In this document: positions 2,972-18,303 of the stretch, piece by piece | Layout: each line of letters begins with the position of its first letter | Numbering within the stretch: position 1 is the stretch's first letter | NCBI GenBank assembly: GCA_017545905.1 | Contig: JAFWXL010000013.1 | Location: forward strand, 1-39,291 | Reading direction: 5' to 3' | Length of the DNA: 39,291 nucleotides | Origin: Clostridia bacterium | GTDB taxonomy: Bacteria > Bacillota > Clostridia > Christensenellales > Aristaeellaceae | Notes under the pieces: generated by a model | What the model was told of the DNA's origin: nothing | The model's input: only the letters and a program-made list of their open reading frames with translations | The model's database searches: none | Position numbers and translations under genes: made by a program

Positions 2972-2993
2972 CTTAGTATACACCCATATGCGT

Positions 2994-3021
2994 CTGGCGC
3001 ATGACCAACGCCATGCGCCAG
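2994..3021 (-). terminator. Hairpin downstream of the SH3b surface-protein gene
   Basis: A perfect 10-bp stem, CTGGCGCATG paired with CATGCGCCAG around an 8-base loop, lies between the stop at 3035 and the TMEM43-like gene. No T-run follows on the minus strand, so it may be a weak terminator or an mRNA-stabilising hairpin. Confidence 0.45.
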
Positions 3022-3034
3022 CGCATCAATTCAA

Positions 3035-4432: not shown

Positions 4433-4489
4433 GTTCTTCTTCCCCCATTATTCCTTACCGCTTCCCTGCGATGATTGCTAAGAGGTTTA

Positions 4490-4511
4490 CCTGCCGGAGC
4501 AATCCGGCAGG
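4490..4511 (-). terminator. Hairpin downstream of the leucine-rich repeat gene
   Basis: CCTGCCGG and CCGGCAGG form an 8-bp stem with a 6-base loop just after the stop at 4524. No clear T-run follows on the minus strand, so termination is only probable. Confidence 0.4.
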
Positions 4512-4523
4512 CATATTTATTTC

Positions 4524-7500
4524 TTACTCGGCGAGGACGAAATGCAGCGTCATCGTGCCGTAGTAGTCCATGTCAAAGCCGTTATCGGTGAGCGCAGCGT
4601 TGAACATGGTGCCGTAGTAATTGATGGAGAACGCATCCACCGTGGAAAGACCGACCGGAACCTTCTGCAGGCCCCACGGCAGGCTCTGAATCGTCGTACC
4701 GGCAAGGGTGAAGTCCGCAAGGCCGTTTTCATGGAAGACGACCGCGTACTCCGCGCCGAGCATAGAAGCGTCCATCGTCTGGCCGAAGGACGTGTAGGAC
4801 TTGGCGACAAACTTCTTTTCCAGCCTGTCCTCCATCTTCGCAAAGCCGGCGCTCTGCGCGCCTGCAGTCGCGCCCGGGATATTGGAGACGCCCGGCGCAA
4901 GGGTCATCGCCTGACCGGCGGTCGGCTCCCACGTCGCGTTTGCATCCTTGCTGAAGACGAAGTAACCGCCCAGCTGGCTGCCGTACTGCAGGCAGCCGTC
5001 GGAGAGCAGCGTCAGCGGCATGCCCTCTTCGCCGAAGTAGACGTTGCCGTCCTCCTCGTACCACTCGCCGCTCTTGTCGATCGGGAAACCGACAGAGGCC
5101 GTGCCGTCTTCGTTTACCGTGAACTTGGAATCAAGACCGAGCACCTGCTTGGGATGGCCGCTCATGCCGCCGAAGTTCATGTAAACCATGTACCACTCGC
5201 CGACATAGCCCTGCAGATGCTCCGGCAAACCGGATTCTTCACCTTCCATCGCCGCAAGCGCAGCAAGGAGTGCCAGCAGCTGTTCATCTTCACTCATCTC
5301 TTCGCCGGCATCGCCGCCTTCGCTCCTGACGAAGACCATACCCTGGGATTCCAGGATCAGCCGGCCCTGCTCGTCAATATAGAGCTCGTCGCCCATGACA
5401 TTTGCCTTGCCGTCAATCACAGACCAGACGCCCGGCTCAGCTTCGCCGAACATCTCCATCGCGCAGGTGCCGTCCTGATTCAGAATCAGGTTCATCGCCA
5501 TACCGCCCATGTCCATCGTCCAGGTGCCGATGAACGGTGCGCCCGCCTCGCCAACCGGAACGGCCAGCGCAGCGATTTCCGCCGCATCGCCATCGTCGTC
5601 AGCCTCGTAAGCCTCTTCGCCCGCAGCTTCGGCACGCTCGTATTCCTGATACACGCCCGTGTCATTGCTGATGATCAGCAGACCGTTTTCGATGACGATC
5701 GGGCAATTCTCCCACAGGCCCTCGGTGATGGTGGGCTTTCCGTCAACAATGGCCCATTCCATCTTGCTCACATAGCCGTCGGACTTGTAGGTCAGCTCAA
5801 TTCTGCCGTCCTCATACACGTCCAGCGTCTTGAAGCCGTCGTCCCAGTGACCCAGAATCGCAGACGTATCCACCGGTTCCGGCGTCGGCACCGGAGTGGG
5901 AACCGGAGTCGGCTCGACATAGGGCTTCATGAGGATGGACGCGCCATCCTGCTCCATGACGATGTTGCCGGCGCCGTCGAAGGAGATTTCGGCAGCCGTG
6001 TTCATCGTCTCGCCCACGTAAGCCGTGCCATAATCGGCAGCCCACTGCAGGGTGTAGGGATCCTCGCCCTCTTCGATAGACTGCGCGGTGCCGTCCTCGT
6101 TGAGCACAAGGATCATCGGACCGACCATCGCGGCGTCATAAGTTTCGCCGTCCATGGTATAGGAAACCGCTTCCCACTTGCCGATGAAATACTTCATGTT
6201 GTCGTAGTTCAGCTCCGGCCACGGCTTTTCCGGGATCGCCGGCGTGGTGTACGCCGTGCCTTCCTTTTCAAAGAGGACATACAGACCGCCGAAGTCGATG
6301 ACCAGACGGCCATTTTCATCAAGCGTGTAGGTCGCCGCCTCTTCCAGCGCGGGCGCGCCGCCCTCCTCAAGGATCGGAGCAAAGATGGCCGCGCCATCCT
6401 GCACATACCAGCAGCCCTGCGTGCCGTCGCCATCCATGATCAGAGAACCAGTGCCGTCCGGATTGAGCACGGCATCCATGATCATGCCCAGCAGTTCAGC
6501 AGTGTAGTAATCCGTGCCGTCAAATACGGCGACGGAATGCCAGGTGCCGAAGAACGGCATACCCGCCATCACGTCAAGCGCCGGGAAGCCCATTTCCATG
6601 TTCTCCGGCTCAATGACCGTACAGGTCGGATAGATAATCGCCATCAGATCCACATAGGACTGATAAACGTCCTTGCTGATGCCTTCCGGGAGGGTAAGGG
6701 TCGCTTCCGTATCCGTCTTGGAGAAAGCGTCGCCCGCAATTTCGACCTTGTTCTTATTCAGAATGACGATTTCCGTCATGTTGTTGGAGAAGGAAAACGC
6801 CTCGCTGCCGATGGTCTGCACATTCTCGCCGATGACCACGCGCTCAGCCTTGTGGGAGCTGAACGCCCTCGCACCGATCTCCGTCACCGTGCTGGGAATC
6901 ACGATCTCGCCGGGCTTATTGAGGCCAAAGGCCGTATGGAAGGCGCTCTCGCCAATGATTTCAAGGCCTTCCGGAAGCACCAGACGATCCAGCTTCGCTC
7001 CATTGAAAGCGCCCTTGCCGATGGTCTTGAGCGTGGACGGGAAGTTCACGCGGGACAGCATCGGCGGCGCAGCAAAGGCGGACTGCTCAATGCTCTCAAC
7101 GCCTTCCGGAATGGTGACCACTGTGATAAAGGGGTTCTTAAAGAACGCACTCTTACCGATGGCCTTGACTGGCGTGCCGCCAATCTTCGCCGGGATCGTG
7201 AAGCAGCCGACCTTGCCGGTATAGCCGGTGATCGTGCCAGTCTCCTTATCAAAGGCAAAATCCTTCTCGGTCACCTTGCGGGTGGAGGCGACCACCTTCT
7301 TACCGGAGGACTTAATGCTTATACCCTCAGGGAGCGCCGCCGTGTAAGCGTCAATCTGGCTGGACGGGACATAAACAACCAGATCCGCAGACGCATTCTT
7401 GAACACGTTGTTGCCGAACACCGGACAGACACCCTTGAAGGTGACCTTCGTCAGCGCCTTGCAGGAGCTGAAGCAATCCGAACCGACATACGCCACGTTC

Positions 7501-7883
7501 CCCGGAACGGTGACTTCCGTCAGCACGTCCATCTGATAGAAGTTGCGGCGGCCGATCACTTCCAGCGTATCCGGCAGGCTGACCTTCGTGAGATCCTTGC
7601 CGCTCATCACGTTCTGGTCGCCGATATGCGTGACGCCCTTGCTGATGGTCAGCGTCGTCACGCCCTTCAGGCCGTTCATGCCCAGCGAATCCGCATACAG
7701 AACCGGCGTGCCTTCGCCGTTCAGCTTCTCAGGAATCACGACTTCCGCCGCGCCGCTGTTTGTATACTTGCCCACGGCAAAGTAATCCGGCATGTGCTTA
7801 AAATCGCTGTCCGCCGCCATCGCGCCTACACTCAGCACAAGCACAAGCAGCATGCTCAGGATAATCGTCAACGTTTTTTTCAT
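4524..7883 (-). CDS. BspA-type leucine-rich repeat surface protein with six C-terminal beta modules
   Basis: A 1119-residue exported protein. A signal peptide (about 1-23, ending AMAA) is followed by BspA/LRR_5-type repeats over about 35-425, with recurrent phrases such as VTIPEGVESIEQSAF and IVIPSTVTEIGARAF. The second half holds about six modules of 75-100 residues, near 443-541, 565-655, 676-750, 783-853, 892-980 and 1016-1119. Most open with a G-x-W signature and contain an N-x-DGT turn. A PTPVPTPVPTPEP linker lies near 658-670. There is no LPxTG motif or lipobox, so how it is retained is unknown. The ATG follows a GGGGGAAAGAAAC ribosome site. BspA-type proteins often bind host or extracellular ligands; the ligand here is unknown. 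The protein at 10180-10857 carries the same module type. Confidence 0.82.
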   Translation of the reverse strand: MKKTLTIILSMLLVLVLSVGAMAADSDFKHMPDYFAVGKYTNSGAAEVVIPEKLNGEGTPVLYADSLGMNGLKGVTTLTISKGVTHIGDQNVMSGKDLTKVSLPDTLEVIGRRNFYQMDVLTEVTVPGNVAYVGSDCFSSCKALTKVTFKGVCPVFGNNVFKNASADLVVYVPSSQIDAYTAALPEGISIKSSGKKVVASTRKVTEKDFAFDKETGTITGYTGKVGCFTIPAKIGGTPVKAIGKSAFFKNPFITVVTIPEGVESIEQSAFAAPPMLSRVNFPSTLKTIGKGAFNGAKLDRLVLPEGLEIIGESAFHTAFGLNKPGEIVIPSTVTEIGARAFSSHKAERVVIGENVQTIGSEAFSFSNNMTEIVILNKNKVEIAGDAFSKTDTEATLTLPEGISKDVYQSYVDLMAIIYPTCTVIEPENMEMGFPALDVMAGMPFFGTWHSVAVFDGTDYYTAELLGMIMDAVLNPDGTGSLIMDGDGTQGCWYVQDGAAIFAPILEEGGAPALEEAATYTLDENGRLVIDFGGLYVLFEKEGTAYTTPAIPEKPWPELNYDNMKYFIGKWEAVSYTMDGETYDAAMVGPMILVLNEDGTAQSIEEGEDPYTLQWAADYGTAYVGETMNTAAEISFDGAGNIVMEQDGASILMKPYVEPTPVPTPVPTPEPVDTSAILGHWDDGFKTLDVYEDGRIELTYKSDGYVSKMEWAIVDGKPTITEGLWENCPIVIENGLLIISNDTGVYQEYERAEAAGEEAYEADDDGDAAEIAALAVPVGEAGAPFIGTWTMDMGGMAMNLILNQDGTCAMEMFGEAEPGVWSVIDGKANVMGDELYIDEQGRLILESQGMVFVRSEGGDAGEEMSEDEQLLALLAALAAMEGEESGLPEHLQGYVGEWYMVYMNFGGMSGHPKQVLGLDSKFTVNEDGTASVGFPIDKSGEWYEEDGNVYFGEEGMPLTLLSDGCLQYGSQLGGYFVFSKDANATWEPTAGQAMTLAPGVSNIPGATAGAQSAGFAKMEDRLEKKFVAKSYTSFGQTMDASMLGAEYAVVFHENGLADFTLAGTTIQSLPWGLQKVPVGLSTVDAFSINYYGTMFNAALTDNGFDMDYYGTMTLHFVLAE

Positions 7884-7901
7884 GTTTCTTTCCCCCGTTC
7901 C

Positions 7902-8375
7902 TTATTGTTCAGGCTCCCGAAGGAACCGATCAAGCAAGCCCTGGATTTCCCGCACGGCGGCAGACAGCCCTTCGGGATAGCTGTTTGTTCCCCGCGCGGA
8001 AAGGGTTGTTTCATCGTCAAAGGCGATGAAAAGGGTAAACGATGTGCCATCCAGCATATGAGGATCGGATTGGGCGAATCCGTCCCACGAAAGCGCGCGA
8101 TGCGTGCGCAGAATATCGGTCACCTGCCCGCCGACCGCTTGTTCAACATACGCGCTGCGGACGGTTCGCCCGCCGCCGGAGCTTTGTGTAACGGTGAAGC
8201 CGTCACCCTCCCGGACAATGGAAAGCTTCGTTTCGCTGCCCATCGCCGTACCAATGGTTTCATAGGAAAAGGATTCAACCAGAACGTCTTCCTTTAGTCG
8301 CTTCCTCTGGCAGCCGCCGAGCAGTGCGGCAGCCAGAAAAAGCAGAAAGCAGAGCAGTATCTGTTTGCGCATCAT
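7902..8375 (-). CDS. Small lipoprotein of unknown function
   Basis: A 157-residue protein. It begins MMRKQ, followed by a leucine-rich helix and LGGC at residues 19-22, a good lipobox, then the basic stretch QRKRLK. It should be lipid-anchored on the outer face of the membrane. The mature part is about 135 residues of mixed alpha/beta character with no recognised domain. The ATG at 8375 is chosen because GGGGGAAGG lies immediately upstream; the adjacent ATG at 8372 is equally possible. It lies 18 bases upstream of the leucine-rich repeat gene on the same strand, so the two are probably co-transcribed. A strong hairpin just upstream separates it from the LPxTG gene. Confidence 0.72.
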   Translation of the reverse strand: MMRKQILLCFLLFLAAALLGGCQRKRLKEDVLVESFSYETIGTAMGSETKLSIVREGDGFTVTQSSGGGRTVRSAYVEQAVGGQVTDILRTHRALSWDGFAQSDPHMLDGTSFTLFIAFDDETTLSARGTNSYPEGLSAAVREIQGLLDRFLREPEQ

Positions 8376-8396
8376 CCTTCCCCCTTTCGAAAAGCA

Positions 8397-8433
8397 CACA
8401 GGGCGGCGGCGGTAGTTTTGTCGCCGCCCTGTG
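8397..8433 (-). terminator. Terminator after the LPxTG gene at 8453
   Basis: A 12-bp perfect stem, CACAGGGCGGCG with CGCCGCCCTGTG around a 13-base loop, is followed on the minus strand by TGCTTTTCG. It probably ends the LPxTG gene transcript. It overlaps the region just upstream of the lipoprotein start. Confidence 0.65.
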
Positions 8434-8452
8434 CATGACGCCTGATCTTTAT

Positions 8453-10081
8453 TTATGCTTCATTCGCCTTTTTGCGAAAAAGCAGCGCGCCGACAGCACC
8501 GCTGATGAGCAGCAAAGCTGTCCACAGCAGAATGCTGCTGTGATCGCCGGTTTGCGGCAGGTTCGGCTTCACATTCTCACCCCAGGACAGTTCGAACGGG
8601 CTGAGCGAATTCACAACGATCACCAGACCGCAATCCTCACGCTTGATGCTGCCATCGGCAGTGGAGAAATGCTCCTCGTTTGCCGTGCCCTTATTGTGGA
8701 TGATGGTATAGTTGATGTGCGTATCCGCCTTGGTATAGCCTGCCGGATACGGGAAGATCATCTTGGACGGTTCCTTGAGGCCGATCTTCTCACCGTCGAA
8801 GGTGTAGAGTCCGGCCTCGTAGGTGATGAAGCATTCCGTGCCGCTGACGTTCTCGCCGATCTTCTCCACATGCAGCTCGACGCCCTCTTCACCATACGAT
8901 TCCACATTCAGCATGACCGCAGGCATATCGACCGGGACAGACGGCAGGCCGTCTTCCTCGTAAATAACCTCAGCTACCGGCACCATGCTCACACACTGTT
9001 TGGAGGTGCTGTTTTCCGTAAATTCCACCCATGCATCTTCCGCGTAATTCTTGTGATAGGTCTTCACGCCGGAACCGCGCTTGACGGTGCCAACGATGGC
9101 ACACTCCTGTCCTTCGACGATGAAGCCTGTGCTGGTCGCGATCTCGACGGTGCCGGCCGTATCGATACCAATCTTGCCCCCTTCAATTCCTACAGCCGAA
9201 GTATCTGCAACCTTTACGGCAGTGCCGGTCACATCATCATCAACAGCGACACAGCAAACCTCGACACCAGAGGCATACACCAGGCTGTTGCCATTGAGCT
9301 CAACGGCGCCGCCGGTGAGAATCGCATACATCTGTTCGCCCTGCATAATGAGCTCGCTGTCATCCAGCGTGACGCCCTCGCCGGCATACACGCCGCGTCC
9401 CAGCTTTCCATTCGCAGCCGCCGGCCTTGTGCCAATCACAATGCGCGAATCCTCAGCGGTGATCTTGCCGGACACGCCCAAGCCGCCCTGCTCGCTGGCA
9501 TTGGTATGCACCTCCATGTTCAGCTCGCTGTCGACGATTTCCACATTCTTACACTGGATCGCCTGCATCGGCCTGACACGCTGCTCACCCGTGATATTCA
9601 GCAAGATATTGCTGATCTTCAGGTCAGCCGCGCGAATGCCCATCTGCCCGCTGGTCACTTTCAATCCTGTGCTGTTTTTGCCATCACCGGCAATTTCCAG
9701 CTTGCATCCCGCACCGTTCACCCCGGTCTGCGGCGGATCCGGGTAACCAATGGAGAGCACCTCATTCTTGGAACCGGTGAATACCAGCTTGAGAGAATCC
9801 GCATTTTCGTTATCCCCAACGAAGCTGAGCGCGGACATCTGTGTGTTTTCCTTCAAGTACAGCGTGGCAGCGCCGTCCACCACGAGGGAAAGCACCCGAT
9901 CCGCCTCGTTGGAATCCACCAGTTCCGCCTCATACTCACCGTTGCCAAGCCTATATGTTCCGTTTGCGTCGTCATAGGAATACGGATCGCCGCTGATGTT
10001 CTTAACCGTTGCCGCGAGCGCACCCGCCGGCAGCAGCAGCGCCAACACAAGAAGCATGGCAAAGAGTTTGTTCAGTCGCAT
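8453..10081 (-). CDS. LPxTG-anchored surface protein, probable beta-helix
   Basis: A 542-residue surface protein with an N-terminal signal peptide ending ALAA. A long region of short beta-rich repeats contains phrases such as AEDSRIVIG, TLDDSELIM and KNVEIVDSELN, suggesting a right-handed beta-helix over about 60-330. A second beta-rich region spans about 340-500. The C-terminus is a complete sortase signal: LPQTG at 508-512, a hydrophobic helix and the tail RKKANEA. It should therefore be linked to the cell wall by a sortase encoded outside the window. The start is supported by AGGAAGGAAGAA before the ATG. A second LPxTG protein with a similar architecture lies at 11777-12653. The ligand or substrate is unknown; no catalytic motif was seen. 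Confidence 0.8.
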   Translation of the reverse strand: MRLNKLFAMLLVLALLLPAGALAATVKNISGDPYSYDDANGTYRLGNGEYEAELVDSNEADRVLSLVVDGAATLYLKENTQMSALSFVGDNENADSLKLVFTGSKNEVLSIGYPDPPQTGVNGAGCKLEIAGDGKNSTGLKVTSGQMGIRAADLKISNILLNITGEQRVRPMQAIQCKNVEIVDSELNMEVHTNASEQGGLGVSGKITAEDSRIVIGTRPAAANGKLGRGVYAGEGVTLDDSELIMQGEQMYAILTGGAVELNGNSLVYASGVEVCCVAVDDDVTGTAVKVADTSAVGIEGGKIGIDTAGTVEIATSTGFIVEGQECAIVGTVKRGSGVKTYHKNYAEDAWVEFTENSTSKQCVSMVPVAEVIYEEDGLPSVPVDMPAVMLNVESYGEEGVELHVEKIGENVSGTECFITYEAGLYTFDGEKIGLKEPSKMIFPYPAGYTKADTHINYTIIHNKGTANEEHFSTADGSIKREDCGLVIVVNSLSPFELSWGENVKPNLPQTGDHSSILLWTALLLISGAVGALLFRKKANEA

Positions 10082-10179
10082 GGTTATTCTTCCTTCCTTT
10101 GTTTGAAATCAGATTTTTCTGTTCCACACATATCCCCTAATGTCAACAGAGCCATCCTTTTCAAAGGTACGCGTTTGGA

Positions 10180-10857
10180 TCAATCGAGCTTCTGGACCTT
10201 CTCCATATAGAAGGTCGCCGGCTCGGAGAACAGATCCATGGTGACGGCGATGCTGCCATCCTCAAGAGCGTTGGCAGTGAAAACCTGCTCCTCGCTATAC
10301 TCATCCTTCGCCGGGACAGTCAGAGTCAGCACGCCATTTTCCAGCACAGCCTCACCCTCGAAGGTTTCCGTATCGATAAAGGTAACCGTCAGAGAGACAT
10401 TCGCGCCCGCGATGCCCGCGTCCATAAACACACCCGCATCATCGACCGGCAGCACCGCGCCGAAAGCATCCACGCGCTGCGCAGTCCAGACGCCCTCAAA
10501 ATCCGCAAGCGCAGCCTCGGCACGCACAGCGGCCGGAGCCCACGCTTCAATCGCCGTACGGGTGAAGAGCATTTCGCCCGCCATATCCAGCGTCTGCGCA
10601 GCAGCATCGTAGGCAAACACACCCTCGGCTTCGGTGCCCTTGTCCACGATCAGGTTCGTGCCGTCCAGCTCCCAGGTGCCCGGAGCCACATCGCCCGCAG
10701 CTTCCAGCACATAGGTGTTGTCCGCGTTCACAGTCATCTTCATCGCCATACCGTAAACCTCGGCATACCACTCGCCGGTCACATCCTCGGCAGCAGCGCC
10801 GCAGGCAAGCACAGCAAGCATCATCAGGGCTATGATTGCAGTCAGGATCTTTTTCAT
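10180..10857 (-). CDS. Exported two-module beta protein
   Basis: A 225-residue protein with a signal peptide (MKKILTAIIALMMLAVLACG, then AAAEDV). The Cys is preceded by VLA, so lipidation is possible but the lipobox is imperfect. Two modules follow: one starting VTGEWYAEVYGMAMKM with PGTWELDG, the other starting FEGVWTAQ. They match the G-x-W/GMAM/N-x-DGT modules in the large leucine-rich repeat protein at 4524-7883, closest to its fourth module. The two genes therefore probably share ancestry and perhaps a binding partner. The ATG at 10857 is preferred because GGAGGAAGAAAAC precedes it; an upstream in-frame start at 10872 lacks such a site. Function is unknown. Confidence 0.72.
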   Translation of the reverse strand: MKKILTAIIALMMLAVLACGAAAEDVTGEWYAEVYGMAMKMTVNADNTYVLEAAGDVAPGTWELDGTNLIVDKGTEAEGVFAYDAAAQTLDMAGEMLFTRTAIEAWAPAAVRAEAALADFEGVWTAQRVDAFGAVLPVDDAGVFMDAGIAGANVSLTVTFIDTETFEGEAVLENGVLTLTVPAKDEYSEEQVFTANALEDGSIAVTMDLFSEPATFYMEKVQKLD

Positions 10858-10896
10858 GTTTTCTTCCTCCATATTTCTATTTATTGGTTACAAAAT

Positions 10897-11622
10897 CTAT
10901 CTGTTCGGCTCCGCGCCGTACAAATCAAAACACAGATCAACGCCGATGCTTTCCAGCCACTTCATGCGACTCAGCACCGCCTCATTGCTCCCCGGCTCAG
11001 CCGCTTGATTCCACTTCGCCGTGTTCTCCTCCAGCGCTTCGCGGAAGATTTCGTACTGCTCAGAAGCAACGCTCACATTCGCTCCGCCGGGTCTGTCTGC
11101 CCAGTCCGCATACATGGTGCGGATGGAATCCAGCCAGAACTGGCATCTGTTCTCCGCCAACAGATACATCAGCTTCTCAGGCGGGTTTTCATAAGAAAGC
11201 TGAATAGCCAGGGGATATTGCTCGATATGCCGATAACAATACTCCACGGGCCAGTAGTCATCCGGCGTCCAGCTGCAGGAGCGCGGATAGCCTTCGTCGT
11301 CCACCGGTGCGCCCGCTTCCCTCTCCAGCCCCATGGAAAGCGCCCACAGGATTTCCAGATCGTTGATGACACCTTCATCCGCAATGCCCGTCTCCTCGAC
11401 ACCCCAGTAGCGCTGAATGGATTGGACCGCAGCCTGCGTCTTCTTGCCGAAAATGCCGTCCGCCTTATCGTCAAGGAAACCAAGGTCAATGAGCATGCTC
11501 TGAAGCTTTTGCACGTCCTCGCCCTTGCTGCCGCGCGAAAGATCCGCCAGCGCACAGGGCGCGGCAAACAGCAGCAAAAGCAGGCAGACAATCATCCGGA
11601 CAAAAAAGCCTTTCCTATTCAC
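10897..11622 (-). CDS. Exported peptidoglycan-binding-domain protein
   Basis: A 241-residue protein. A signal peptide (NRKGFFVRMIVCLLLLLF, then APCALA) is followed by a PG_binding_1 domain at about 28-90, seen as LSRGSKGEDVQKLQSMLIDL and DGIFGKKTQAAVQ. The remaining 150 residues, rich in Trp and Tyr, are unassigned; no hydrolase motif was found. The domain normally binds peptidoglycan, so the protein should be wall-associated. GTG at 11622 is preferred because GAGGGCGG lies upstream and the signal peptide begins there; the longer frame adds an unlikely leader. The promoter region carries the regulatory box shared with the two-component locus at 14.5 kb, linking this gene to that system. Confidence 0.75.
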   Translation of the reverse strand: MNRKGFFVRMIVCLLLLLFAAPCALADLSRGSKGEDVQKLQSMLIDLGFLDDKADGIFGKKTQAAVQSIQRYWGVEETGIADEGVINDLEILWALSMGLEREAGAPVDDEGYPRSCSWTPDDYWPVEYCYRHIEQYPLAIQLSYENPPEKLMYLLAENRCQFWLDSIRTMYADWADRPGGANVSVASEQYEIFREALEENTAKWNQAAEPGSNEAVLSRMKWLESIGVDLCFDLYGAEPNR

Positions 11623-11669
11623 AGAAGCACCGCCCTCGCTTTCCAAAAGGGTACAACATCCCAGATATA

Positions 11670-11720
11670 ATTTTAACAGTTTATTCCATCGGCGAACACT
11701 ACACGAAAGTACCGTTTTTT
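11670..11720 (-). promoter_or_regulatory. Promoter with shared box upstream of the peptidoglycan-binding gene
   Basis: On the minus strand the box CGGTACTTTCGTGTAGT is followed by exactly 22 bases and then TAAAAT (11670-11675). Box and TAAAAT recur with the same spacing before the response regulator at 14466. The start codon is about 48 bases past TAAAAT. No good -35 hexamer is visible, which suggests activation by a factor bound at the box. Confidence 0.65.
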
Positions 11721-11742
11721 GGGGGCAACGCAAAAGAGAAAA

Positions 11743-11768
11743 CGCCTTCCTAAGAATTCAGGAAGGCG
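11743..11768 (-). terminator. Terminator of the LPKTG gene
   Basis: CGCCTTCC and GGAAGGCG form an 8-bp stem with a 10-base loop, followed on the minus strand by TTTTCTCTTTTG. It lies eight bases past the stop of the LPKTG gene and is a clear intrinsic terminator. Confidence 0.85.
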
Positions 11769-11776
11769 TGATCTGT

Positions 11777-12653
11777 TCACATACTTGTATCTGTATTATA
11801 CTTCTTGCGGGCTATCAGCACAAGCGCCGCCATGCTGGTCATTGCAAGGCTGAGCCAAAGCATGATGTCACTCTCATCGCCGGTCTTGGGAAGTTCATGA
11901 ATACCATTAGGTACTCGCACGATCTTGATATAATCGTATTTTTCCAAATCTGCGCTATCAAACGTTTCCAGCGGCGATCCGCTGCTGCTCTCAGATGCAA
12001 CGATGATCCACTCATCGGGCGTTCCAGCCTTCATCACACCCTTGGCAGCGTGAAGCGCATAACAAGATCTATCCGTTCTCTGATTCGTGCTGCGCAGTAT
12101 AATCGTACCCAGCTTATCAGACTGTTCTATTCTGAGATCTCCCTTTGTAACCTCCGCAGCAATATGTCTGGCAGTAATTTCGACATTACCACCGCTGATT
12201 CGCAGTTGTCTCTTCGCCGAAATGCCGCCTTCACTTGATTCAATGGTAAGCGAATCATTTACCGAACCATCGATGAAGTCCAGATCGCCGAGAATCGCCA
12301 GATGATATTCATCAGGATTGCCCTCGGCGCAGATATAGTTATCACCTTCAAGATGAATAGTAAACTCGCTATCAAATTCAGGGCAGTTGATAACAGCCCT
12401 AGAATCAGTATCATAATACCGACCGTTGCCTGTATAAGAAAAGTTATGAAGCGTCAGGTGAAGATCCCATCCATCCGCCTCAAGATACGCATAACCGCCG
12501 CTCGTCGGCTTAGTCTTCGTCGTAGCAGATGCACCATTGGCAAGATAGTCGCCATCGCGCATTATAATGTCGCCAATGTACAAATATACATCAGCAGCAA
12601 GCGCAACCGTCGGAAGCAGCAATGCCACCAGCAAACCATTTTCTCATGTCCAT
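11777..12653 (-). CDS. LPxTG-anchored surface protein with apparent frameshift in signal peptide
   Basis: The continuous frame runs from 12634 to 11777 and gives about 285 residues: a hydrophobic signal core LLVALLLPTVALAA, a beta-rich region with a probable beta-helix (LRISGGNVEITA, KGDLRIEQSD), then LPKTG at about 248-252, a membrane helix and a basic tail. In that frame the only local start is a TTG with no ribosome site and no basic n-region. The natural start, ATG at 12653 or 12647 after AGAAGGACG, encodes MDMRK in another frame. Losing one A, or gaining two, in the four-A run at 12639-12642 would join the two parts. The gene is thus broken, phase-variable or affected by a sequence error. 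A sortase should anchor the product if it is made. Confidence 0.7.
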
Positions 12654-13060
12654 CGTCCTTCTTTCACTTTTGTTTTGAATCCCATCTGAAACGGCCCCCA
12701 ATCCCTCTTGGCTCGCCAGATCCCTTCGACAACAAAAGCTTTTCAGTTTCCGATCCGGCTCATAGAACCATCTATCGTAATCGGTACAACGCCCGTAGTT
12801 TCCGCAGGAAATACCCGTAACATTTCCCCAGCGCTTTAGCAGCGGTATCCTACACAAGTAAGCTCTTTGGAGCAACGTACTTTCGTGTAAGTTTTGGCGA
12901 TTCAAGCCAAATGTCATGAAATGTTGAGAAAGTCGTATAATTCCGTCTCAATTTATGAACAGCTGCGTCACAAAGCCTCTCACTTTCTTTTTTGGGACGC
13001 GGAGATAATTCGCACCAATTGTAAAATCCCTTTCATTTGTCGTTACATATTCCTCCCACC
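12654..13060. other. AT-richer intergenic region without a recognised gene
   Basis: No open frame here looks like a gene. The stretch is visibly richer in A and T than its neighbours. It holds one copy of the shared regulatory box at 12874-12891 and otherwise nothing recognised: no tRNA-like fold or riboswitch was spotted. Confidence 0.6.
12874..12891 (+). promoter_or_regulatory. Orphan copy of the shared regulatory box
   Basis: AACGTACTTTCGTGTAAG on the plus strand matches the box found upstream of the peptidoglycan-binding gene and the response regulator at 14466. No TAAAAT lies 22 bases downstream, and no gene on the plus strand follows. It could act on the minus-strand LPKTG gene, whose start is about 220 bases away. 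Confidence 0.5.
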
Positions 13061-13103
13061 AAAAAGAAACTGCGCGCCAACCGGTTCTTCCCAGCCGACG
13101 CGC
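13061..13103 (-). terminator. Terminator of the zinc-binding/EF-Tu-like gene
   Basis: On the minus strand GCGCG and CGCGC close a stem extended by CGGCTGG with CCGGTTG (using G-U pairs). It is followed by AGTTTCTTTTTGG. It lies just past the stop at 13122. Confidence 0.65.
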
Positions 13104-13121
13104 TCCATATATCGTGTTAAC

Positions 13122-13808
13122 TCATTTCACAACCCGATTTCCCGGGAACACGCCCAACGGGAGATCCAGCAGCAGCCATCCGGTCTGATCCTCCGACAGC
13201 CTCTGCTTACCCATATGGGCACGGACATGCGTTTCAAATGTGTTTTCGCCGTCATCCTCGTAGGCCTCCAGCACATGAGCATCAAGCAGCTTGCCCTCGT
13301 TATCGATACGCACAGCGTCGCCCTTTGCAAACATGCCCTGCTCCACTCTGCCATAAACAACCATCGTCTTATTGAGCTGCTTAGCCCGAACGACGCCCAC
13401 CTGAATGGCAGTAGGCTCAATTTGGAAGGCTTCCTGCACAATCAGATATGCAGAGGCACTTTCACCATACTGCTCCAGCTCGCCGCGATCCACCTGCTCC
13501 TTCAGCGCAAGCAGCTGCTTCGCCTGCTGAAGGGTCATTGTGCGCCAATTACCCAGCGTATAGCCAGCCAGCGGAGAATTCTCCTGCATGCGCTTGCTCA
13601 TCCAGCGCTTCTTGTCACGAATCAGCGTCTGAATCCTTTCATCGCACGCCTTGCAGAGATTGCCGCCCTCTACGTGCTTCGTATTTGTGCTCCAGAAGCC
13701 CGTTGCAAAGAAGCCCAGCTTTTTGCCGCAGATATCGCATTTCGCGCCCACGGGAACATAAATGCAGTCCGTTCCCCATTCCACAAAACGCTTGAACTTA
13801 TCGCCCAT
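13122..13808 (-). CDS. Zinc-binding protein with EF-Tu domain 2-like C-terminus
   Basis: A 228-residue cytosolic protein. The N-terminus carries a four-cysteine site, C24-x2-C27 and C52-x2-C55, like DUF4428 zinc domains. A basic helical linker covers about 60-125. Residues 130-228 resemble domain 2 of translation factors such as EF-Tu: MVVYGRVEQGMFAKGDAVRI mirrors the V-x-GRVE-x-G-x-x-x-x-GD-x-V element, and the end has the expected small beta-barrel pattern with PLGVFPGNRVV. No GTPase domain is present. The ATG at 13808 is chosen for its GAGGAG site; an upstream extension has none. It lies downstream of the atypical response regulator on the same strand, separated by a hairpin. The role is unknown; binding to RNA, the ribosome or a protein is a guess. 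Confidence 0.68.
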   Translation of the reverse strand: MGDKFKRFVEWGTDCIYVPVGAKCDICGKKLGFFATGFWSTNTKHVEGGNLCKACDERIQTLIRDKKRWMSKRMQENSPLAGYTLGNWRTMTLQQAKQLLALKEQVDRGELEQYGESASAYLIVQEAFQIEPTAIQVGVVRAKQLNKTMVVYGRVEQGMFAKGDAVRIDNEGKLLDAHVLEAYEDDGENTFETHVRAHMGKQRLSEDQTGWLLLDLPLGVFPGNRVVK

Positions 13809-13830
13809 CGCTTTCTCCTCGCTTTCTGAC

Positions 13831-13860
13831 AAAAACGCCGCCCGGTTCTTCGGACGGCGC
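13831..13860 (-). terminator. Terminator between response regulator and zinc-binding gene
   Basis: On the minus strand the stem CGCCGTCCG/CGGGCGGCG (one bulge) is followed by TTTTTGT. It sits between the response regulator stop at 13870 and the next start at 13808, so read-through is probably partial. Confidence 0.7.
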
Positions 13861-13869
13861 AAATATGCA

Positions 13870-14466
13870 TTACTGAACGATCAGCCCGCTTGACCGCGCA
13901 TGCACAGCCAATTCTGTGCGATTCCTGTAACCGCTCTTTTCTCGCAGATTCTGGATATGTCCCTTCACCGTGCGCAGCGAGATGCCGAGCTTATCTGCGA
14001 TCTCCGCATCCGTACTGCCGGAAACCACCTCGCGCAGCACCTGAAGCTCACGGTCGGTGAAGTCCGTGCTGAGCGCCTGACCAAGACGCACGACCATCTG
14101 CTGCGGATAGACAGATTCTCCTGCCATGGTTCTGTCCATGAGACTATTCAGCGCCTTTGCATCCGGCTGCTGATACCAGAAGCTGTCTGCGCCGCTTTCC
14201 CTTGCGCCGGTCATGCAGCTGTGATCCGGCATGCCGGTCATGGCGATGAGCTTCACATTCGGGTATTCCCGCTTAAGCCATGCTATGGTTTCCAGCCCGT
14301 CGGTGTTGATCAGCGCAAGCTGCGCCGGATGCTCCTTAAGCAGTTCCGGCGTAAGATGGTGACAGCAGACAGACGCGGCAACCTGATAGCTTCCGCTTTC
14401 GCTGACAAAAAGCTCAATCAGCGCTCTTGCCATCGGGTCGTTTTCTGCAATCAGCACAGCGATCAT
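13870..14466 (-). CDS. LuxR-type response regulator with degenerate receiver
   Basis: A 198-residue regulator. Residues 1-118 are a receiver domain and about 133-196 a LuxR/NarL-type helix-turn-helix (FTDRELQVLREVVSG, ISLRTVKGHIQNL, NRTELAVHAR). Aligned by eye with its canonical paralogue at 17635-18303, the phosphoacceptor Asp54 is Asn54, the acidic pair is N9-D10 instead of D9-D10, and the switch Lys is Gln99. Phosphorylation of the normal kind therefore looks impossible, and the protein may act constitutively or by forming dimers with the paralogue. The ATG follows GGAAGGAGGATGGCAG. It is divergent from the sensor kinase operon, sharing the 240-bp regulatory region, and its promoter contains the shared box. 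It probably regulates this locus and the peptidoglycan-binding gene. Confidence 0.85.
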   Translation of the reverse strand: MIAVLIAENDPMARALIELFVSESGSYQVAASVCCHHLTPELLKEHPAQLALINTDGLETIAWLKREYPNVKLIAMTGMPDHSCMTGARESGADSFWYQQPDAKALNSLMDRTMAGESVYPQQMVVRLGQALSTDFTDRELQVLREVVSGSTDAEIADKLGISLRTVKGHIQNLREKSGYRNRTELAVHARSSGLIVQ

Positions 14467-14512
14467 CTGCCATCCTCCTTCCGCTTTGTCTTCCGTAAAA
14501 GTGTCCTATGCT

Positions 14513-14557
14513 ATTTTAGCAACTTAAGGAAGTTTGCGGTACTACACGAAAGTACCG
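14513..14557 (-). promoter_or_regulatory. Response regulator promoter with palindromic box
   Basis: CGGTACT and AGTACCG (14537-14557) are perfect inverted arms around ACACGAA. On the minus strand, TACTTTCGTGTAGT within this palindrome is followed by 22 bases and then TAAAAT (14513-14518), exactly as at 11670-11720. The start codon is about 46 bases past TAAAAT. Confidence 0.7.
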
Positions 14558-14582
14558 TTTTTTCTGTTTCAAGCGCGCACGT

Positions 14583-14627
14583 ACCGTACTTTAGTACGGT
14601 GTTAGACAGCCATATAGCTGGTAAAAT
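14583..14627 (+). promoter_or_regulatory. Sensor kinase operon promoter with palindromic box
   Basis: ACCGTACTTTAGTACGGT (14583-14600) has 8-bp inverted arms around TT. Twenty-one bases later comes TAAAAT (14622-14627), preceded by TGG, as in an extended -10 element. The box shares GTACTTT-x-GT with the two minus-strand boxes. The kinase start is about 80 bases further on. Confidence 0.65.
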
Positions 14628-14706
14628 ACCATACAGAACCGGTTGCCGGGACGGATAAAGTACGCTATGATGGAAGTATCCAGAACCACATGAGAGGAAA
14701 ACCCCT

Positions 14707-16359
14707 ATGGCCATTTCAAGAAAACGTTCTATTCTGTATTTATCAGTGATCGGCGTGCTGCTGCTGATTGCCTACAGCATGCGACACATCTTTCATCATA
14801 TGACGGATAACGCACTGCTGGGCATCTCCATGATGACGCTGCGCTGGGTGATTCACATCACGCTGACGGTCTTCTGGTGCCTGTCGCTGCGCAGGCGGAT
14901 TCTGAGCCGGTCTATACGAAGGCTCTTGCTGAGCGTGGGCGGCCTACTTCTCTTCTGGCAGATCGTGCGCATCATCAAGTATGATTATGTCATCGTAACC
15001 GAGGCGATCGGCCGCTATTGCTGGTACAGCTACTATATCCCGATGACGCTGGTTCCGCTGCTGGGTGTGTTCATCATCGCGCACATCGGCAAGCCGGAAG
15101 GATATCACGCTCCTTCCTGGATGAAGCTCCTGTTCATCCCGGCATCTGCGCTGATTGCCGTCGTCATGACCAACGATTTTCATCAGCTCGTCTTTACCTT
15201 TCACAACGGCTTTGAACGCTACAATTCTGATTACGGCTACGGCTTCATGTACATCATCGTCATGGGCTGGTTTGTCGTGACGGGGCTGTATTTCGTCATC
15301 ATGCTTCTGGTTAAGAGCCGCGTACCGGGCAGCAAGAGCTTTCAGAAACTGCCACTGATGATCATGCTCGGCGCCATCGTATTCTGGGCTGGCTACAGCA
15401 TGAAGCTCTACACCGGCGACCTGACCGCGATGGACTGCGTCATCATCATCCTGCTGCTGGAAAGCGCCATTCAGAGCGGACTGATCCCCTCCAACATGCA
15501 CTACAGCGAGCTGTTTAACCAGTCCACCATCGCCGCGCAGATCATCGATCACCATCATACCGTGCACTATAGTTCTTCGGCCGCTAAGCCGCTGGACGAA
15601 ACAACCATCAAAAAAGCGCTCACGCAAACCGTAGCGCTTGGAGATACACTTCTGCACAGCCAGCCCATCGCCGGCGGCCATATTCTCTGGCAGGACGACG
15701 TGAAGGAAATCAACAACCTGACGACGCACCTGCGCGAGGCCAACGAGCTTCTCTACGAGCAGGTTGATCTGATGAAAGCCGAAGTCGAGCTGCGTGAGCG
15801 CAGCCTGCAGGCCGAGGAAAAGAGCCGCCTGTATGACCGAATCGCCACAGAGATTGCGCCGCGTCTTCACAAGGTTGATGAACTGCTGCTTAAGAGCCGC
15901 GAGAATCCCGGTCAGGCCGATGTGCTGATCGCACAGATCTGCGTCATCAGCGCCTACATCAAGCGCCGCGCCAATCTTATTCTGCTGGGCGAAGAGAATC
16001 CAAACGCCTCTTCCCGGGAGCTGGAATCCTGCCTGCGCGAATCGCTGGATAACCTGAAGCTCTGCGGCGTGATGACCTATCTTGAAAGCCACTGTGAAGG
16101 ATCCGCTTCTCTTTCGGATATCGTTGCCGTCTATGATCTGTTTGAGGACGTCGCGGAAGCGCTGCTGCTCAATCTGAGCGCCATGGTGGTCACCGTATCC
16201 TGCAAAAGCGATGCGATTCATCTGCGCATTCAGGCGGGATGCAAGGAAATCATTGAGGCTCTCCCGGCATTCACGCTCTCAGGCGATGCTGTCCGCTGCG
16301 TGATTCAGGATGAAGACGTCATCATCGACGCAACGCTTGCGCGGGGAGGTGCACAGTGA
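14707..16359 (+). CDS. Sensor protein with N-terminal 7TM domain and degenerate kinase region
   Basis: A 550-residue membrane protein. Seven or eight hydrophobic helices fill residues 7-262, like the histidine-kinase N-terminal 7TM sensor domain. A PAS-like segment (IAAQIIDHHHTVHYS) and a coiled coil over about 330-385 follow. The C-terminal part has helices where the dimerisation domain should be (YDRIATEIAPRLHKVDELL) but no His-Asp/Glu phosphorylation box, and I see neither an N-box nor a glycine-rich ATP lid. It therefore looks like a pseudokinase or signal receiver. The ATG at 14707 follows GAGAGGAAAACCCCT. Its stop overlaps the start of the intact kinase downstream, so the two are translationally coupled and probably work as a pair. 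The stimulus is unknown; cell-envelope signals fit the regulon idea. Confidence 0.72.
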   Translation: MAISRKRSILYLSVIGVLLLIAYSMRHIFHHMTDNALLGISMMTLRWVIHITLTVFWCLSLRRRILSRSIRRLLLSVGGLLLFWQIVRIIKYDYVIVTEAIGRYCWYSYYIPMTLVPLLGVFIIAHIGKPEGYHAPSWMKLLFIPASALIAVVMTNDFHQLVFTFHNGFERYNSDYGYGFMYIIVMGWFVVTGLYFVIMLLVKSRVPGSKSFQKLPLMIMLGAIVFWAGYSMKLYTGDLTAMDCVIIILLLESAIQSGLIPSNMHYSELFNQSTIAAQIIDHHHTVHYSSSAAKPLDETTIKKALTQTVALGDTLLHSQPIAGGHILWQDDVKEINNLTTHLREANELLYEQVDLMKAEVELRERSLQAEEKSRLYDRIATEIAPRLHKVDELLLKSRENPGQADVLIAQICVISAYIKRRANLILLGEENPNASSRELESCLRESLDNLKLCGVMTYLESHCEGSASLSDIVAVYDLFEDVAEALLLNLSAMVVTVSCKSDAIHLRIQAGCKEIIEALPAFTLSGDAVRCVIQDEDVIIDATLARGGAQ

Positions 16360-17642
16360 TGCTGAATTATGCAAGTCTGTCCATGCCCTTCAAAACGCTG
16401 CTGGTCACCGCGCTGTTTCTCTCGCTCTGCACGGGCGTATGCACAAGCATCCTCGTCGGCAGAAAGCAGGGAAAGCTGTGTCAGCTGCTTCTGATCCTGA
16501 GCACAGCGGCGCTCGCCGCCATGATGCTGCTTTATACCTCCATCATCCCTGCCGAACGGGCAAAGCCAAATATTCCTTCCATTGCAATTGGGTTTGCTGA
16601 GCTTCCCATTTTGATTTCCGTTCTTCTGTGGCTGCTCATCTTGCTCTACCTCGTTCACGTGATTGCGGCGGAGATCAAGCGCCGCTCCACGGCCATCACG
16701 CTTTCCTCGATCAAAGAAAGCCTTGATCACCTTCAAACCGGCCTGTGCTTCTCTCTGCCAAACGGTCTGATTCTTTTGAGCAATCATCGCATGAACGAAC
16801 TGAGCCACCAGCTCTTTGGCCAGCCGCTTCAGAATGCGAATCTGTTCTGGAAAGCGCTTCAAAGCGGCGAAACCGCCAGCGGCGTTTCCCGTCTCTCCGC
16901 CGGCGATCATCCGGAATTCTCTCTGGCAGACGACTCCATCTGGACGTTCAAGTTTGAAAAACTGGACAGCGTCATCCAGATCACAGCTGCACAAACCACC
17001 AGGCAGCATCAGCTGCTCAGTGAGCTTCAGGTTCGTAATCGTGAGCTTGAAGCCATGAGCGAGCGTATCCGAAGCTACGGCGAAAAGGTTGACGAATACA
17101 TCACCGCGCGTGAACGGCTCGATACCCGTGTCAATCTGCATGGTTTTCTTGGACAATCCCTGCTGATGACCCGCCACTATCTGCAAAGCAAAACCGGAGA
17201 CAGGCAGAGGATTCTGGACATCTGGCAGCACAACGTCGATATCCTGCGCCTTGAAGCCGAACCGCAGCAGGAAGCCGACTCCCTTGCAAGCCTTAAAAGC
17301 GCCGCACAGGCAATCGGCATGCAGGTGCATGTTCATGGCAGCCTGCCTCCCAACCCCAGCCACAGAAGGCTCATCGCTTCTATCGGTGCTGAAGCGCTGA
17401 CCAACGCCGTCCGCCACGCAGGGGCGACGCAGCTGTTTATCGACGCGCAGGAATCAGCAAATACCTATGTTGTCCGCTATACCAACGACGGCGTTCTTCC
17501 TGATCATGCGATCACCGAGGGCGGCGGCCTTGGCAGCGCCCGCAGAAAGATTGAAGCTTCCGGCGGCAACATGCAAATCGAAGCCTCGCCGCACTTTGCC
17601 CTGATACTCTCCTTTGATAAAGAGGTGATGTCTCATGTATAA
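16356..17642 (+). CDS. Histidine kinase (HisKA_3/HATPase type)
   Basis: A 428-residue membrane kinase. Three hydrophobic helices (about 12-34, 40-60 and 80-102) lead into a PAS-like region at about 115-210. A coiled coil follows, then a dimerisation helix with VNLHGFLGQSLL, where His262 fits the phosphorylated His of the LuxR-partner kinases although Gly replaces the usual Asp/Glu. The ATPase domain is intact: an N-box at 344-355 (GAEALTNAVRHA), TNDG at about 376-379 and a glycine-rich lid at 389-404 (GGGLGSARRKIE). Translation starts at GTG 16356 or ATG 16359 after GGGGAGG, overlapping the upstream sensor stop. Its stop overlaps the start of the response regulator at 17635, so all three form one operon. 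It should phosphorylate that regulator. Confidence 0.82.
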   Translation: MMLNYASLSMPFKTLLVTALFLSLCTGVCTSILVGRKQGKLCQLLLILSTAALAAMMLLYTSIIPAERAKPNIPSIAIGFAELPILISVLLWLLILLYLVHVIAAEIKRRSTAITLSSIKESLDHLQTGLCFSLPNGLILLSNHRMNELSHQLFGQPLQNANLFWKALQSGETASGVSRLSAGDHPEFSLADDSIWTFKFEKLDSVIQITAAQTTRQHQLLSELQVRNRELEAMSERIRSYGEKVDEYITARERLDTRVNLHGFLGQSLLMTRHYLQSKTGDRQRILDIWQHNVDILRLEAEPQQEADSLASLKSAAQAIGMQVHVHGSLPPNPSHRRLIASIGAEALTNAVRHAGATQLFIDAQESANTYVVRYTNDGVLPDHAITEGGGLGSARRKIEASGGNMQIEASPHFALILSFDKEVMSHV

Positions 17643-18303
17643 TGTACTGATCGTCGAAGATGATCCTATGGCCAGAAAGCTCATGGAGATTTTTGTCTGT
17701 TCCAGTGAAGGATATCAGCTGGTTCCATCTCTGGACAGCGCTGCCATGGCCGAGCTTTACTGCATGACCAATCCCGTGGATCTGATCCTGATGGACGTCT
17801 GCACGGCCATGGACGCCAACGGCCTCGAAGTTGCCGGGAAGCTCAAAAAGCGATTTCCGCATATCAGGATCATCATCATCACCAGTCAGCCGGAATACAG
17901 CTACATCGACCATGCGCGGCAGATCGGTGTAGAGAGCTTCTGGTACAAAGAGCCTGCCTCCGAGGCGCTGCTTGATGTAATGAACAGAACGATGGCCGGG
18001 GAATCCGTCTATCCGGATTCAGCGCCTGTTATTCGCCTTGGCGCTGCGCTGAGCAGCGATTTTACCGATCGTGAGCTGGAAGTCCTCCATGAGCTGGTGA
18101 GCGGCAAAACAGACGCTGCGATTGCTGAGACGCTGTACATGTCCGTCACACGCGTCAAGCAGCACATTTTGAAAATTCGTGAAAAGACACAGTTTTCCAA
18201 CAGAACCGAGCTTGCTGTTCGTGCCAGAGAAAGCGGAATCGTGATTGGCGATCGGAAAGCTAATGATCATTCTATTCTCAAAACCATCGAGATCCTCAAC
18301 TAG
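17635..18303 (+). CDS. LuxR-type response regulator, canonical
   Basis: A 222-residue NarL/LuxR-family regulator. The receiver holds the expected residues: E8-D9-D10 acidic pocket, phosphoacceptor Asp54 (LILMD), Thr83 and switch Lys105 (FWYKEP). The output domain at about 143-200 has the LuxR helix-turn-helix (FTDRELEVLHELVSG, MSVTRVKQHILKI, NRTELAVRA). The sequence is clearly related to the degenerate regulator at 13870-14466, so a local duplication is likely. It overlaps the kinase stop by 8 bases, giving the operon order sensor, kinase, regulator. It probably binds the palindromic boxes in the divergent promoter region and upstream of the peptidoglycan-binding gene; which of the two paralogues binds them cannot be told from sequence. 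Confidence 0.88.
   Translation: MYNVLIVEDDPMARKLMEIFVCSSEGYQLVPSLDSAAMAELYCMTNPVDLILMDVCTAMDANGLEVAGKLKKRFPHIRIIIITSQPEYSYIDHARQIGVESFWYKEPASEALLDVMNRTMAGESVYPDSAPVIRLGAALSSDFTDRELEVLHELVSGKTDAAIAETLYMSVTRVKQHILKIREKTQFSNRTELAVRARESGIVIGDRKANDHSILKTIEILN

Follow-up and report, generated by a model that had tools for sequence, protein, structure and literature searches.

A promoter box with a LuxR-type response regulator as its likely reader at a sensor locus of Aristaeellaceae (Clostridia)

The 39,291-nucleotide stretch of contig JAFWXL010000013.1 (positions 1 to 39,291) of a Clostridia bacterium (Aristaeellaceae; assembly GCA_017545905.1), referred to here as the window, carries on its forward strand a putative operon encoding a seven-transmembrane (7TM) sensor (HK1), a histidine kinase (HK2) and a response regulator (RR1), and on its reverse strand the genes for a second, aspartate-less response regulator (RR2), a DUF4428 protein and a run of exported proteins headed by a peptidoglycan-binding (PGB) protein (Table 1). 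The promoters before the sensor operon, RR2 and the PGB gene share a short box at a nearly constant distance from a −10 element. Comparison of these promoters and regulators with those of related genomes leads us to consider it likely, with good confidence, that the box is the operator of RR1, which in its phosphorylated form would bind at the −35 position and activate transcription.

Table 1. Promoter elements and genes of the locus (window coordinates; HTH, helix-turn-helix).
Feature	Position	Strand	Remarks
PGB promoter, box TACTTTCGTGTAGT	11698-11711	-	read from 11711 to 11698
PGB promoter, -10 TAAAAT	11670-11675	-	read from 11675 to 11670; 22 bases after box; TG at 11677-11678 (extended -10)
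RR2 promoter, box TACTTTCGTGTAGT	14541-14554	-	inside CGGTACT-N7-AGTACCG; sequence identical in genome G011
RR2 promoter, -10 TAAAAT	14513-14518	-	22 bases after box; TG at 14520-14521; TAGAAT in G011
Sensor-operon operator ACCGTACTTTAGTACGGT (predicted)	14583-14600	+	contains box TACTTTAGTACGGT at 14587-14600
Sensor-operon promoter, -10 TAAAAT	14622-14627	+	21 bases after box TACTTTAGTACGGT; TG at 14619-14620
Further box-like copy TACTTTCGTGTAAG(T)	12878-12891	+	probably a relic
HK1, 7TM sensor (HisKA_7TM), pseudokinase	14707-16359	+	PF16927, 2.8e-08
HK2, histidine kinase	16356-17642	+	H-box His 262, N-box Asn 350 / His 354
RR1, response regulator, receiver and LuxR-type HTH	17635-18303	+	PF00072, PF00196; proposed binder of the box
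RR2, aspartate-less response regulator, LuxR-type HTH	13870-14466	-	D to N, six-residue gap, K to Q
DUF4428 protein (open frame as listed)	13122-13862	-	downstream of RR2
Exported PGB protein	10897-11622	-	PF01471, 1e-13; first gene after the box at 11698
Six co-directional genes	2111-10872	-	lipocalin-like, LPXTG, lipoprotein, BspA-type leucine-rich repeat (LRR), 465 residues, TMEM43-like

The observation of three promoters with a shared box had been made in an earlier note on this DNA and was confirmed: TACTTTCGTGTAGT lies exactly 22 bases before TAAAAT at the PGB and RR2 promoters and TACTTTAGTACGGT lies 21 bases before it at the sensor operon, and both palindromes described there, CGGTACT-N7-AGTACCG at the RR2 copy and ACCGTACT-TT-AGTACGGT at 14583-14600, are present. 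All three promoters have an extended −10, with TG one base ahead of the hexamer. That they lack a clear −35 also held, since a consensus promoter scan (13 sites in the window against 11.2 in shuffled sequence) gave none of the three TAAAAT hexamers a −35 partner, and the hit overlapping the sensor-operon promoter, TAGACA at 14603 paired with TACCAT at 14627-14632 (9 of 12), uses a different −10. Directly 5′ of both copies of TACTTTCGTGTAGT stands an A-run, AAAAAACGG, at 11715-11720 (PGB) and 14558-14563 (RR2), which is absent directly upstream of the sensor-operon copy; the palindrome of the latter is the same in the window and in the related genome G011, though the flanking bases differ on both sides.

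A further box-like copy, missed by the earlier note, reads GTACTTTCGTGTA-AG from 12877 on the plus strand, with one extra base before the final AGT. It reaches a position weight matrix score of 15.3, the next best score in the window outside the four copies being about 5.1. As a fourth promoter it was rejected, the best −10 within 19-25 bases being no better than 4 of 6, and the stretch that holds it found no DNA match in the G011 loci; it is probably the relic of another promoter copy.

Across the family, the expression TACTTT-N-GT-[GA]-[TC]-[AG]-GT retrieved 33 box promoters from 16 genomes, and these precede the sensor operon, divergent exported-protein genes, RR2 or the PGB gene. The distance from box to −10 was 22 bases in 30 of them and 21 in the other 3; the hexamer was TANAAT in all 33 (TAAAAT 17, TATAAT 13, TACAAT 2, TAGAAT 1), and in 31 a single base separates it from a preceding TG. 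For comparison, a −10 matching at least 5 of 6 was found at 21-22 bases for 0.5% of 20,000 positions drawn at random from these loci, a share that falls to 0.075% when TG is also required; for 15,807 positions nearby the corresponding values were 0.6% and none. Three bases off the box runs a stretch of four columns with A in 27 to 32 of the 33 promoters at each, the remaining spacer columns carrying little information. Half sites ACT-N7-AGT, an inverted repeat with its halves about one helical turn apart, are present in 31 of the 33, and the 22-base spacer puts their centre 29 bases ahead of the −10, counted to the start of the hexamer, at about −41. The box lies beside genes for LuxR-type regulators, at a fixed distance from the −10 and in place of a −35, which is the placement of a class II-type activator site.

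This placement bears on the sign of regulation. RR1 could instead bind the box and repress, its dimer blocking polymerase until phosphorylation releases it, or acting in negative autoregulation, the box does touch the −35 region, and an extended −10 promoter can function without a −35; however, the scan paired no TAAAAT with a −35, and a distance of 21-22 bases held in 33 of 33 promoters is needed by an activator that touches polymerase but not by a repressor. Repression is for these reasons unlikely.

A hairpin offers another reading of the same bases, in which the box would be half of an intrinsic terminator of the opposite strand, GGTACTACACGAAAGTACC and then a T-run; the scan lists 14536-14558 on the plus strand as terminator-like, and A-runs precede most boxes. 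We rejected this highly improbable alternative because an unbroken stem of at least five pairs occurs at only 5 of the 33 sites, whereas all of them keep the 21-22-base distance to the −10. Rfam gave no match in the window at its gathering threshold. The 23 bases AAAAAACGGTACTTTCGTGTAGT shared by the PGB and RR2 copies might also reflect a recent DNA duplication with no binding protein involved, and the exported-protein promoter may indeed have been copied, but the two copies have unrelated spacers, and G011 and 14 further genomes retain the box although their spacers have diverged. The promoters of PGB relatives in G011 (locus L018) and G012 (L185) retain the box, the 22-base spacing and TAAAAT, that of G011 with a diverged spacer. 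Such conservation in relatives refutes duplication as a sufficient explanation, and as a reading of the box it is extremely improbable.

The box is rare and nearly confined to this locus. In the window, GGTACTTTCGTGTAGT with up to three mismatches had 3 matches where shuffled sequence gave 0.09, and in the window's own assembly (2.53 Mb, 77.8% complete) the 13-mer GTACTTTCGTGTA with up to one mismatch had three occurrences, each of them exact and each lying in one 2.9-kb part of the window, its reversed control matching 6 times. Allowing up to three mismatches, CCGTACTTTAGTACGG matched exactly only at 14584, with two mismatches on the opposite strand there and with three at six other places (reversed control, 42 matches). 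Exact matches to TACTTTYGTRTAGT in 300 family genomes numbered 31 in 17 genomes; 30 are box promoters at this locus, including those before the PGB genes in the window, G011 and G012, and the remaining one is a stray match in G122 without a −10. The reversed pattern gave 36 scattered matches in the same 300 genomes (counted by hand from the table). With one mismatch allowed in 24 genomes chosen from the relatives, 26 of 40 matches lay at this locus and 14 elsewhere, and the reversed pattern matched 93 times (hand count).

A genome-wide regulon finds no support in the assemblies searched, which are incomplete: there was no match beyond the window in its own genome and a single stray among the 31 exact matches. 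The same confinement, to nearly one locus per genome, argues against an unrelated global regulator as the reader of the box, as does its occurrence with only one type of RR1, with one loose end: G012 has the box before its PGB gene, yet its assembly, which is 83% complete, yielded no HK1. An alternative sigma factor is at odds with a −10 of TATAAT type with TG, and we regard either of these readers as very unlikely.

The RR1 type in question is defined by the recognition-helix sequence RVKQHI. Among 80 HK1 upstream regions the box was present in 13 of the 14 that accompany an RVKQHI RR1 (10 of 11 genomes, three of them counted twice), in none of 65 with another RR1 (three of these regions being shorter than 200 bases) and not in the one without RR1; the more distant relatives thus show no box in 66 HK1 upstream regions lacking an RVKQHI RR1, those of G025 and G027 included. 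In the RVKQHI-type relatives two back-to-back boxes lie upstream of HK1, belonging to the sensor operon and the divergent gene, respectively. The sole RVKQHI exception, G013, has lost the promoter region: it has nothing corresponding to window positions 2126-14737, and its HK1 starts at the point of the break. Eleven further RVKQHI loci were not judged, HK1 being cut by the contig end (G004, G011, G233, G236, G238, G245, G253). For G011, G253 and G084 the promoters were found on another contig (L018, L165 and L152, the adjoining HK1 being at 67% in L165 and 66% in L152), which leaves five of the seven contig-end genomes unjudged (all but G011 and G253). Of the 107 response-regulator sequences aligned, all 25 RR1s with at least 77.7% identity have this helix sequence, and the other 82, RR2 included, lack it.

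G013 is unusual in other respects. The break (L017, about 11187) removes the exported block, RR2 and the promoters, by a real deletion or an assembly join, and its RR1 departs from the other RR1s after REKTQF. Apart from that gene, L017 also holds a 149-base stretch (7535-7683) which is 94% identical to window positions 17757-17905, inside RR1, and is perhaps a partial copy.

Since RVKQHI is confined to the RR1s of the box-carrying clade and RR2 has a different helix, RR1 is proposed as the binder of the box, and RR2 is, judged by its sequence, probably a target. RR2 might nevertheless be the reader, either by itself or obligatorily paired with RR1 in a heterodimer: it is encoded beside two boxes, its LuxR-type HTH is intact and under strong purifying selection, and it closely resembles RR1 in helix 1 (identity 0.64, the median being 0.43; reached by 11 of 77 homologues) and in the linker (0.71, reached by 3 of 77). 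Identity in helix 5 is not raised (0.50, reached by 68 of 77), so that interface conservation gives mixed signs for a heterodimer. Moreover, among the 300 family genomes RR2 proper was found only in the window and in G011 (98% identical), whereas 14 of the 16 box-promoter genomes are different ones, and the type to which its helix, LRTVKGHI, belongs occurs in genomes that lack the box. On balance RR2 as the reader is quite unlikely. The suggestion of the earlier note that the box is an activator site of the two-component system, with autoregulation, thus gains comparative support from the spacing in 33 of 33 promoters, the confinement to the locus and the link to one RR1 helix type; of the two LuxR-type regulators whose binding it proposed to check, RR1 is the likely binder.

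Several points weigh against RR1 as an activator acting through this box. The collecting expression fixes most columns of the box, so its invariance is partly by construction, and the −10 was chosen as the best within 19-25 bases. The box and the RR1 type share ancestry, so that their co-occurrence counts as one evolutionary event, not many. Finally, the sensor-operon copy of the window and G011 has neither ACT-N7-AGT nor the A-run, has the 21-base spacing and forms the 7-2-7 palindrome instead, so that one protein would have to accept two forms of site.

Upstream of RR1 in the proposed pathway stand the two sensor proteins. In 83 aligned HK1 sequences the sole column with His in at least half of the rows corresponds to residue 159, in the N-terminal region, and none falls at the H-box, whilst His 262, Asn 350 and His 354 of HK2 are invariant in 95 of 95 aligned HK2s (some genomes being represented twice in both alignments). 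HK2 had no Pfam match in the search of the window proteins; there were weak NCBIfam matches below the cut-off, to UhpB and NarX, and its relative in L055 matched HATPase_c at 0.0038. As HK1 lacks the H-box His and HK2 keeps the His/Asn/His set, HK2 is, on these residues, the likely phosphate donor of the system. The adjoining pseudokinase and intact kinase form a conserved pair, observed over the 83 HK1 members. Within the genus, 5 of 29 genomes yielded HK1, and 80 loci from named genomes, whose titles are mostly those of gut and rumen Clostridia metagenome-assembled genomes, were retained out of 312 encoding a relative; the order HK1-HK2-RR1 is kept in most of them.

RR2 had been called degenerate in the earlier note, a term that does not fit its conservation. 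An aspartate-less receiver (ALR) is defined as a receiver without the phosphorylated Asp (PMC12632262), and RR2 conforms to this, as LILMD of RR1 reads LALIN in RR2 and YKEP reads YQQP, so that both the phosphorylated Asp and the conserved Lys are gone. Its ratio of nonsynonymous to synonymous substitution (dN/dS) against G011 is 0.046, the lowest of seven segments (0.062 to 0.248 in the others), which speaks for strong purifying selection and not for decay. As a query RR2 found relatives in 64 of the 300 family genomes, the listed matches other than those of the window and G011 reaching at most 52% identity. Its origin as a recent duplicate of RR1 was rejected, since a tree of 97 rows places it outside the box-carrying clade and L082 (support 98/78), though on a long branch (1.36) and with uncertain placement. 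Whether RR2 and the DUF4428 gene are transcribed together is uncertain because they are separated by a hairpin (13860-13835) that resembles a terminator, having 10 pairs and a T-run. DUF4428 relatives directly follow RR1 in L055 and L059, so RR2 with DUF4428 resembles the end of such an operon. Synonymous divergence from G011 is 0.11-0.22 in RR2, HK1, HK2 and RR1 and about 0.5 in the DUF4428 and PGB genes, a contrast which hints at exchange of the regulatory core.

On the other side of the locus, the PGB gene opens a run from 11622 down to 2111 that consists entirely of minus-strand genes with gaps of up to about 100 bases, and no minus-strand terminator-like site lies in those gaps; the six genes of 2111-10872 are the probable remainder of a PGB-headed operon. 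The single wall-protein target of the earlier note remains a putative target, though apparently as the first of an exported-protein run extending to about 2111. The start of the PGB protein is signal-peptide-like, and this and the other export and membrane calls were made by eye. The product of 10180-10872 is 65% identical to the target in G150, the lipoprotein of 7902-8399 is 25-36% identical to lipoprotein targets, and the LRR protein of 4524-7883 is a relative of proteins at the corresponding place in other genomes. In all 13 relatives read, the divergent gene encodes a lipoprotein or a protein with a signal-peptide-like start: a lipoprotein of 160-181 residues in 10, and proteins of 231, 678 and 699 residues in one each. 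As the exported-protein genes of the window belong to the same set as the targets in relatives, its three promoters would correspond to the ancestral divergent pair and one extra copy; RR2 and DUF4428 may have come to lie between the sensor operon and the exported-protein genes, with the exported-protein promoter being copied. A further LPXTG surface-protein gene (11777-12667, minus strand) has no good start before its signal-peptide-like stretch and looks frame-broken near the 5′ end.

Building on the observed sequences, spacing, conservation and co-occurrence with the RR1 helix type, we propose that HK1 and HK2 would respond to a signal and that HK2, the active kinase, would phosphorylate RR1. 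A dimer of RR1 would then bind the box, through the core ACT-N7-AGT or the 7-2-7 palindrome at the sensor-operon copy. As the box centre lies some 41-43 bases upstream of the transcription start that the −10 predicts, the dimer would occupy the place of the −35 and recruit RNA polymerase to the extended −10 promoter (TGN-TANAAT), as in class II activation; activation is the sign suggested by the position of the box. Putative targets in the window, subject to the predicted operon extents, would be the sensor operon that encodes RR1 (autoregulation), RR2, possibly together with DUF4428, and the PGB-headed exported-protein genes, and in relatives RR1 would drive the sensor operon and the divergent exported-protein genes. 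More tentatively, the circuit may be closed and act only in cis, the whole RR1 regulon being its own locus, with RR2, which would be unphosphorylatable and differ in DNA specificity, wired in by the copy of the exported-protein promoter; RR2 might then relay the signal in a cascade or modulate RR1 as a heterodimer, in this lineage only.

In class II activation by LuxR-type proteins the lux box lies at about −42. The present promoters share with it the LuxR-type HTH, an operator replacing the −35 and a fixed distance to the −10, but the protein is a response regulator and not an acyl-homoserine-lactone receptor, and the −10 is extended. The sensor operons of the LiaFSR, VraSR and CesSR systems, which answer cell-envelope stress in Firmicutes, encode LiaF with a LiaS-type kinase. 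The operon described here differs from these, comprising a HisKA_7TM pseudokinase, a separate kinase and RR1; no LiaF-type match was obtained among the ten window proteins searched, the search being confined to these. The CesR consensus TCAGHCTnnAGDCTGA is an inverted repeat of 16 bp beside an A4 stretch (PMC4447274), and LiaR of B. subtilis has one relevant target promoter in vivo (PMC7191749). LiaR and CesR resemble RR1 in being LuxR/NarL-type response regulators, the sensor-operon site of the window shares the 7-2-7 layout with a core ACT-nn-AGT, and the single LiaR target recalls the local regulon here. Of the three window sites, one shows the layout and no A-run, and two show an A-run and lack the layout; across the family, 31 of 33 sites are instead ACT-N7-AGT. 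At PliaI, binding is described as far upstream as −89 to −76 (PMC7191749), whereas the box here is at the −35 position. For the atypical response regulators BldM and WhiI of Streptomyces a functional heterodimer has been shown (PMC4125116); that pair resembles RR1 and RR2 in that a single circuit contains two response regulators of which one or both are atypical, and differs in that the RR2-RR1 interface gives mixed signs. A search of the open-licence literature found no description of this box or of the sensor cassette, and we infer a new regulon of a known kind, the operator of a LuxR/NarL-type response regulator with class II activation.

For a cassette of Clostridia comprising a 7TM pseudokinase, a kinase and a LuxR-type regulator, these results supply a proposed operator, a likely regulator and a set of putative targets, and the pairing of the helix RVKQHI with the box TACTTTNGTRYRGT offers a usable candidate rule of specificity. 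They predict which surface proteins of uncultured, largely ruminant-gut bacteria would be switched by an external signal, and RR2 would be a naturally occurring example of an aspartate-less regulator controlled by an ordinary one. If the closed circuit is real, a local switch would have become a two-step one in this lineage only.

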